Of a stretch of 64,000 bases of DNA, positions 13,715 through 16,473 are shown piece by piece. The notes beneath the pieces were generated by a model. That model was not told where the DNA came from. It did not search any database and saw only the letters and a program-made list of their open reading frames with translations. The DNA comes from Alkaliphilus pronyensis (GTDB taxonomy: Bacteria; Bacillota; Clostridia; Peptostreptococcales; Natronincolaceae): positions 1-64,000 of the forward strand of contig NZ_WBZC01000019.1 of assembly GCF_009017275.1 (NCBI RefSeq). The letters are read 5' to 3'. A program made the translations under genes and the position numbers. Position 1 is the stretch's first letter. Each line of letters starts with the position of its first letter.

Positions 13715-13732
13715 AAAAGTATGGAGGCAAGC

Positions 13733-14424
13733 ATGAGGAAAATAATATTGATAATGCTCATTATGTTTACTTTAGTAGGATGTTCAAAAAACACAATTTC
13801 TAATAATGAAAGCAATTATGAAGAAATAAGTAGCTTGAAGGAACAAATGGCAGAAAAGGATAAGGAAATACAAAGATTAATAAACTGCTGGAGGATAGAG
13901 AGTTTTATATAGATAACGATAATGAGCTGATTAATTACTATGTCAGCTATATTGAGTCCTCTAAATACACTGAACACACTGACAGCAGCATATATAAATT
14001 AGCCTGGAGACTAAATGATAATTCTTACATTATACTTAGAGAGGTTGTAGGTAAAGGTGAGAGTGAATTAGTTTATGAAGATAATAACATGTATACATTT
14101 AAGGTTACAGATGACGAGGATTTAATTGCAATTTCCTTTTATAATAAAGATAGAAGCATTGACAGATTAAAGCTTGTAGATACTGAAGGAACTATCCAAA
14201 AGGAGTATAGTATTGAAGATTTTTATAAAAACGATGATTCAGATGAAAAAATGAACATATATATTAATGATTTTTCAATAGATAATTCAGTGCTTTGGGG
14301 TGGTATTGGTGGTGACTTGGATGTTTTTTTACAATTTATAATTCATTTAGAAGATGGAAGAATTGAAATAATAGATTATAATAAGTATGAAGAGTATATA
14401 CAGAAATACCCATATGTAAATTAG
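13733..14424 (+). pseudogene. Lipoprotein gene broken by a frameshift
   Basis: The first frame starts at ATG 13733 (GGAGG 5 nt ahead), has a signal peptide with lipobox LVGC and a coiled-coil stretch (SSLKEQMAEKDKEIQRL), and stops at 13912. The continuation lies in the -1 frame from about 13880 (KLLEDREFYIDNDNEL) and runs open to 14424. Together they would make about 230 residues. The simplest explanation is a 1-nt deletion around 13875-13885 or a sequencing error. No strong slippery heptamer was seen. No family was recognised for the C-terminal part. Confidence 0.6.
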
Positions 14425-14438
14425 TTTTTAAATGACAA

Positions 14439-14472
14439 GTTAGCACTTTAATGGAGAGAGTGCTAACTTTTT
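14439..14472 (+). promoter_or_regulatory. CIRCE-like inverted repeat upstream of htpG
   Basis: TTAGCACTT (14440-14448), 9 nt, GAGTGCTAA (14458-14466) matches the CIRCE operator of HrcA, TTAGCACTC-N9-GAGTGCTAA, at 17 of 18 arm positions. It lies 8 nt upstream of the htpG -35 box. The same dyad (GTTAGCACT/AGTGCTAAC) is followed by TTTTT, so it could also terminate the preceding lipoprotein transcript. Both roles may apply. Confidence 0.6.
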
Positions 14473-14473
14473 G

Positions 14474-14502
14474 TTGACATAAATTTCTTATAGTTGTATC
14501 AT
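14474..14502 (+). promoter_or_regulatory. htpG promoter
   Basis: TTGACA (14474-14479), 17 nt, TATCAT (14497-14502), about 90 nt before the htpG start codon. Confidence 0.6.
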
Positions 14503-14592: not shown

Positions 14593-16473
14593 ATGAGTAA
14601 GCAAAAGGGTAGCCTGTCTATACATAGTGAAAACATATTCCCTATAATTAAAAAATGGTTGTACTCAGATCAAGACATTTTTATTAGAGAGTTAGTATCC
14701 AATGGATGCGATGCTATTACAAAGGTTAAGAGGTTAGATACCTTTGGGGAGGCAGATTTGAGTGGAGAGACAAACTTCTACGTTAAGGTTGTTTTAGATA
14801 AGACAGCGAGAACACTAAAGTTTATTGATAATGGTATAGGCATGACGGATGACGAGGTCAAAAAGTATATAAATCAAATTGCATTTTCTGGTGCAGAGGA
14901 TTTTCTAAACACCTATAAGGATAAGGGTGATAAGGATCAAATAATTGGGCATTTCGGCTTAGGCTTCTATTCAGCCTTTATGGTGGCAGATAGGGTGGAT
15001 ATTGATACATTATCCTTTAAAAAAGAGGCTGAGGCTGTTAAATGGAGCTGTGATGGTGGAACAGAATTTGAAATGGAAAAGGGAGACAAGCTAGATAGAG
15101 GAACAGAGATAACACTTCATTTAGGAGAAGAAGGTGAAGACTTCTTAAATGAATATACTGTTAGATCAACTATTGAGAAATACTGTTCTTTTATGCCATA
15201 TCCAATCTTTTTTGATGTAGCAGATAAGGAGCCAGAAAAAGATAAAGAAGGTAATATAGTTGTTGAAGAGCCAAAGCCTTTAAATGACATTGAGCCCCTG
15301 TATTTAAAACAGCCTAACAGCTGTAAAGATGAAGATTATAAGGAGTTTTATAGAAGCACCTTTAAAGATTTTAAGGAGCCACTATTCTGGATTCACCTGA
15401 ATATGGATTATCCATTTAATTTAAAGGGTATTCTTTACTTTCCTAAACTAAATACGGGATTTGATACATTGGAGGGACAAATTAAGCTATACAATAACCA
15501 AGTGTTTATTGCAAATAATATAAAGGAAGTAATTCCAGAGTTTTTACTGCTGTTAAAGGGAGTTATAGACTGTCCAGACCTCCCATTAAATGTATCTAGG
15601 AGCTTTCTTCAAAATGATGGGTCAGTAAGAAAAATATCTGACTATATTACTAAAAAGGTTGCAGACAAACTGAATCAGTTGTTTAAATCAGAACGGCAGC
15701 AATACGAAAAGTTTTGGGATGATATAAGCCCATTTGTAAAATTTGGATCATTAAAGGATGAAAAATTTTATAAAAAGGTGGATTCAATAATACTATATAA
15801 AACCATTAATAACAAGTATACCACAGTGGAAGAATATCTCTCAGGTTTAGAAGGAAAGCTGGAGAATCAAGTATATTACGTAACTGATAAAATACAGCAA
15901 TCCCAATATATTAAATTAATTAAGGAAAATAATTTAGATGCTGTTATACTAGACCACCACATTGATTCAGCCTTTATATCCTATGTAGAAGCTCAAAAAG
16001 ATAACTTAAGCTTTAAAAGAGTTGACTCCGACATAGCAGAGCTTATAAAGGATAAAGAAGCAATAGAAGGTGAAGAGGATAAAAACCAAACTGAAGGCCT
16101 ATTATCCATTTTTAAAAAAGCACTAAACCGAGAGGATTTAAAGGTGAAGCTTGAGAGCTTAAAGTCTGATGATGTTGCTGGTATGATTATCCTTTCAGAA
16201 AACAGCAGAAGAATGCAGGATATGATGAAGATGTATAGCATGAATGGCATGGATATGGGGGCTATCCCTAGTGAAGAAACCCTAGTACTAAATAAAAAGC
16301 ACCCACTTATAAGCTACCTAATTAATAATAATGAGGAAGGGTCAGATAAAGCTAATATGATAGCTCAACAGGTGTATGATTTAGCGATGATTAGCCACAG
16401 AACTTTATCTCCCGACGATATGAGTAGCTTTATTAAAAGAAGTAATGAGATTATGAAGCATTTAATTTCATAA
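14593..16473 (+). CDS. htpG: Molecular chaperone HtpG (Hsp90)
   Basis: The product has 626 residues, normal for HtpG. The GHKL ATPase motifs are present: IRELVSNGCDAI, DNGIGMTDDEV and GHFGLGFYSAFMV. The middle domain contains the RGILYFP-like KGILYFPKL and PLNVSRSF blocks. It is an ATP-driven cytoplasmic chaperone. ATG 14593 follows AAGGAG by 8 nt. It has its own promoter and a CIRCE-like repeat upstream, which would put it under HrcA heat-shock control. In B. subtilis htpG is not in the CIRCE class, so this would be a lineage difference. Confidence 0.96.
   Translation: MSKQKGSLSIHSENIFPIIKKWLYSDQDIFIRELVSNGCDAITKVKRLDTFGEADLSGETNFYVKVVLDKTARTLKFIDNGIGMTDDEVKKYINQIAFSGAEDFLNTYKDKGDKDQIIGHFGLGFYSAFMVADRVDIDTLSFKKEAEAVKWSCDGGTEFEMEKGDKLDRGTEITLHLGEEGEDFLNEYTVRSTIEKYCSFMPYPIFFDVADKEPEKDKEGNIVVEEPKPLNDIEPLYLKQPNSCKDEDYKEFYRSTFKDFKEPLFWIHLNMDYPFNLKGILYFPKLNTGFDTLEGQIKLYNNQVFIANNIKEVIPEFLLLLKGVIDCPDLPLNVSRSFLQNDGSVRKISDYITKKVADKLNQLFKSERQQYEKFWDDISPFVKFGSLKDEKFYKKVDSIILYKTINNKYTTVEEYLSGLEGKLENQVYYVTDKIQQSQYIKLIKENNLDAVILDHHIDSAFISYVEAQKDNLSFKRVDSDIAELIKDKEAIEGEEDKNQTEGLLSIFKKALNREDLKVKLESLKSDDVAGMIILSENSRRMQDMMKMYSMNGMDMGAIPSEETLVLNKKHPLISYLINNNEEGSDKANMIAQQVYDLAMISHRTLSPDDMSSFIKRSNEIMKHLIS

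Follow-up and report, generated by a model that had tools for sequence, protein, structure and literature searches.

Does the inverted repeat just ahead of htpG in the window (the whole 64-kb stretch of DNA analysed here) bring Hsp90 under the control of HrcA, or is it there to end the transcript of the gene before it? HrcA is a repressor that acts at the CIRCE operator, and in B. subtilis htpG is a class IV heat-shock gene and not a CIRCE gene. The repeat also lies on the far side of the promoter from where a CIRCE is usually found, so there is the further question of how a repressor might act from that position.

The operator, the promoter and the gene

The letters at 14440–14466 on the plus strand read TTAGCACTT-TAATGGAGA-GAGTGCTAA, that is, an arm, a spacer of exactly 9 nt and a second arm. 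Against the consensus that we used, TTAGCACTC-N9-GAGTGCTAA, 17 of the 18 arm positions agree, and the initial annotation of a repeat with this degree of match just before the htpG promoter is thereby confirmed at the level of sequence. The sole deviation is a C to T change at the innermost base of the left arm. Since the nearest relatives, G001 and G008 (L144 and L148), have the same change, that of the window site is inherited.

Such a match is rare. It is the only one in the window at up to three mismatches, where dinucleotide shuffles yield a mean of 0.02. The genome that contains the window (3.06 Mb, 99% complete) has exactly three CIRCE-like sites at the same threshold. The reversed pattern, searched as a control across those 3.06 Mb, gave 0 matches, and the expectation from composition is 0.0018 sites per genome at up to one mismatch. 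The shuffles, the reversed control and the composition expectation lead us to reject a chance match, and it is not by chance that the third site of the genome precedes another chaperone gene. A CtsR-type box was also sought near htpG and was rejected as a candidate, the best match having 6 mismatches out of 15.

All the elements that follow are on the plus strand. A predicted sigma-A promoter, 11/12 to consensus, starts 7 nt downstream of CIRCE. The intervening gap, CTTTTTG at 14467–14473, is T-rich and conserved in length. The consensus calls place the -35 element TTGACA at 14474–14479, in a register that is kept in relatives, and the -10 element TATCAT at 14497–14502 after a 17-nt spacer. 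Counted from the start inferred from these hexamers, the leader of htpG is about 85–90 nt long and CIRCE occupies about -69 to -43, with its centre near -56. The gene itself runs from an ATG that follows an AAGGAG ribosome-binding site to the end of a 626 aa frame (14593–16473). The product is HtpG by the NCBIfam equivalog model NF003555 (679 bits against a cut-off of 371), and among solved structures E. coli HtpG is the closest to it in sequence. Before CIRCE is a co-directional gene at 13727–14424 with the look of a small lipoprotein (MRKIILIMLIMFTLVGCSK...). Two frames are needed to read it through, which makes it either a pseudogene or a gene with an assembly error in it.

The three-site regulon of this genome

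Besides htpG, the three CIRCE sites of the genome precede hrcA-grpE-dnaK-dnaJ and groES-groEL. The initial annotation had suggested looking for the site in front of these two operons, and both carry it in perfect form. The hrcA site (L001) matches at 18/18 and lies 18 nt before hrcA at the head of its operon, and the groES-groEL site (L002) likewise matches at 18/18. In both places CIRCE is downstream of promoter-like elements and close to the start codon, and no T run follows the motif. HrcA is encoded at L001:1546-2577 and is intact by the family models, with PF01628 and TIGR00331 both above their cut-offs (336 bits against 197 for TIGR00331). Within the family, the number of sites tracks htpG: G005, in which htpG was not found, has 2, against 3 or 4 in genomes where htpG bears CIRCE. 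Judged from sequence, the repeat is very probably a genuine CIRCE operator, which would place htpG in the HrcA Class I regulon with hrcA-grpE-dnaK-dnaJ and groES-groEL.

Fourth sites were seen in several genomes. In G003, G024 and G026 (L180, L187, L189) the additional CIRCE is before an Hsp20-like small heat-shock gene, in the classical downstream position. G006 has a perfect one just before a predicted membrane protein gene (L184:971-997, minus strand), and that of G002 (L183) has no obvious chaperone adjoining.

A fixed register between operator and promoter

For a view of relatives that does not depend on the motif, 80 htpG loci were picked by a protein-only search of named genomes, including Fusibacter, Lachnospiraceae, Blautia, Hungatella, Coprococcus, Anaerocolumna and others. 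CIRCE is upstream of htpG in 77 of them; within the HtpG lineage of the window, the site is missing in three to four relatives. Among the 87 CIRCE-bearing loci of that lineage, the -35 begins 6–8 nt after CIRCE in 84, with TTGAC exactly 7 nt away in 72 and at 6 or 8 nt in 12 more. The window site has the modal 7-nt register. Loci from a class-wide composite search, for which the pattern was itself the criterion of selection, are not part of the 87. Although the register to the -35 is fixed, the start codon may lie anywhere from about 55 to 290 nt from CIRCE. The fixed position just upstream of the promoter is common to more than 100 relatives.

The three loci of the lineage first scored as lacking the upstream register differ from one another: in L072 the register is occupied by TTGTAT, L154 has a weak CIRCE with 2 mismatches, and in L081 the CIRCE is farther upstream. 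Outside the class, the composite of CIRCE and register was seen in one genome of the same phylum (L193). It had been remarked at the outset that a position upstream of the -35 is less usual for CIRCE. This is indeed where the site lies, as it ends 7 nt before the -35 and is neither over nor downstream of the promoter. An operator over or downstream of the promoter is the usual arrangement, yet it is not a defining requirement for CIRCE.

Two HtpG lineages with two operator geometries

The bacterial family of the window holds two types of HtpG that share about 30% identity. In the first, the type of the window (52–83% identity across the wider lineage set), CIRCE precedes the -35. In the canonical type (L085–L113), CIRCE is present at 26 of 32 loci. 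Promoters were scored at 20 loci, and at 18 of these the -35 is 32–40 nt before the start of CIRCE, which puts CIRCE over or after the -10. On the HtpG tree, a long branch with full support separates the labels for the two geometries, with few exceptions. Counted over labelled loci only, there are 4 label changes; the upstream label changes 5 times against a mean of 25.7 for shuffled labels. The geometry of the operator therefore goes with the lineage of the gene and not with the species. On one reading, the gene was replaced together with its own operator–promoter module; on another, the operator was recruited independently.

It may be added that the two lineages (L085–L113 and L144–L152) apparently replace one another between genera. 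Some genomes of the order have a canonical htpG without CIRCE (L086, L087, L092, L100, L102). The only two CIRCE sites of G022 lie away from htpG, so that HrcA control of htpG was either lost or never gained there.

Proposed control from upstream of the promoter

The site and its conservation, the promoter register and the three-gene regulon are what we observe; for binding by HrcA, a repressive sign, feedback through GroE and occlusion from upstream at htpG, we infer the following course. Without stress, GroE would keep HrcA active, and HrcA bound to CIRCE would keep htpG transcription low. Under stress, unfolded proteins would titrate GroE, HrcA would leave, and the strong sigma-A promoter would fire. 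Since CIRCE ends 7 bp before the -35, HrcA would not be a downstream roadblock. It might occlude the UP region, where the alpha-CTDs of RNA polymerase bind, together with the side of sigma region 4 that faces upstream at the -35. A register fixed at 6–8 bp suggests that HrcA touches or clashes with the polymerase in a position-dependent way. Such a mechanism of repression is tentative, since the hrcA and groES operators of the same genome sit downstream of promoter-like elements. The fuller proposal, for which we find the case close to balanced and a shade on the doubtful side, is that in one clostridial htpG lineage CIRCE is locked 6–8 bp upstream of the -35, that HrcA represses htpG or otherwise acts there by a position-dependent contact with RNA polymerase from upstream and not by blocking the start region, and that this module travels with htpG, a second lineage having its operator downstream.

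Alternative readings of the repeat

The repeat could have a function as RNA in addition to its function as DNA. The extended inverted repeat at 14437–14469 (plus strand), a possible terminator of the upstream gene, folds into a hairpin of 13 pairs at -15.8 kcal/mol (z -5.0) with the CTTTTTG tail directly after it, so that it has both a stem and a U-tract, and the T run on which the initial annotation had raised a double role is real. In that case the site would serve HrcA as operator at the DNA level and, in this genome, would double as a terminator that insulates htpG, such that only the HrcA-controlled promoter feeds it. The hairpin anatomy with its T run, 15 nt beyond the end of the upstream frame, is consistent with this, as is a stem lengthened in the window by AAG/CTT past the need of CIRCE. 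T tracts are present at 101 of 115 upstream-type htpG sites, far more often than at downstream-type ones (5 of 26), which cannot be terminators since they would shut off their own gene. However, downstream-type sites fold at least as well, so the hairpin energies are not in the expected direction, and the T-rich gap may simply belong to the promoter/UP region. Such gaps are nearly as frequent where there is no co-directional gene to terminate: within the lineage, a T tract follows CIRCE at 76 of 81 loci whose upstream gene is co-directional and at 13 of 17 whose upstream gene is divergent (Fisher p 0.046, uncorrected for relatedness). On balance we doubt the dual role, while counting it a possibility to be reckoned with.

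That HrcA at the upstream site activates htpG, or does nothing there, instead of repressing it, is very unlikely, as HrcA is established as a repressor and activation would be out of line with all that we know of it. The placement is activator-like in its centre near -56 and its fixed register, and B. subtilis htpG is reportedly under positive control, going by the title of a 2003 paper by Versteeg et al. that PMC3408451 cites. Against activation, the htpG of C. acetobutylicum, which is likened to the present one by regulon, is induced along with other HrcA targets (PMC3828012).

It is extremely unlikely that intrinsic termination of the co-directional gene ending at 14424 is the main reason for which the repeat is kept, with its likeness to CIRCE secondary, even though a 13-pair stem and then TTTTTG stand 15 nt past the stop of that frame and T tracts lean towards co-directional neighbours in the counts above. 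The arms and the N9 spacing are conserved by letter: the 22 arm pairs with a change comprise 1 that is compensated on both sides, 10 that still form a wobble and 11 that are broken, and the arms do not covary. CIRCE and the 6–8 nt register are kept at 17 loci with a divergent upstream gene. Both are kept as well with A-rich gaps that have no T run (e.g., AAAAGTA; L115, L131, L133, L134), and the same motif stands without a T run at hrcA and groES. Since the arms are kept as letters and not as pairs, and since the site persists with divergent neighbours and A-rich gaps, the repeat is conserved as a DNA operator. The initial annotation had named conservation in relatives purely as a terminator as the outcome that would undo it. 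The relatives do not bear that out, and a terminator-only reading is rejected on the lack of arm covariation and the persistence before divergent neighbours.

Comparison with known systems

Two clostridial precedents were found. The htpG of C. acetobutylicum (CAC3315) has a conserved HrcA site, belongs to Class I and is stress-induced (PMC3828012). C. cellulovorans has exactly three CIRCE matches, before groE, dnaK and hsp90, and its HtpG protein is induced (PMC8336468). As HrcA control of htpG is thus published in two clostridia, the htpG of the window is a new member of a known regulon. The original idea that HrcA control extends to htpG here gains support from the three-site regulon, and what falls away is its novelty for clostridia. 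Both Class I regulons have the same operator consensus, repressor family and three chaperone targets as here, and C. cellulovorans has exactly three sites, as does the window genome; the comparison covers consensus, repressor family and targets. Elsewhere, clostridial htpG is still filed as class IV after B. subtilis (PMC3848806; PMC3408451), and that of C. difficile is treated as class IV, with a transcript below significance (PMC3408451). A literature search for an upstream CIRCE position, partial in coverage and so weak as a sign of absence, returned none describing this geometry, and the rigid upstream placement may be new.

Across a large part of the Clostridia, htpG is a steady third member of the HrcA regulon. 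This is in contrast with the B. subtilis model of htpG as class IV, which is often copied into annotations and papers. The B. subtilis gene also encodes a heat-induced Hsp90, but by general knowledge and the title mentioned above it is reportedly under positive control and has no CIRCE, unlike the gene here. The canonical clostridial htpG (L085–L113) is nearer in that it encodes an Hsp90 with CIRCE as here, but its HtpG is about 30% identical and its operator overlaps or follows the -10. The classical CIRCE sites at hrcA-dnaK and groESL (L001, L002) have the same operator sequence, placed downstream of the promoter and not upstream of the -35. The conserved upstream register is therefore a natural experiment on HrcA repression, with the same operator and the same repressor on opposite sides of the promoter in one genome.
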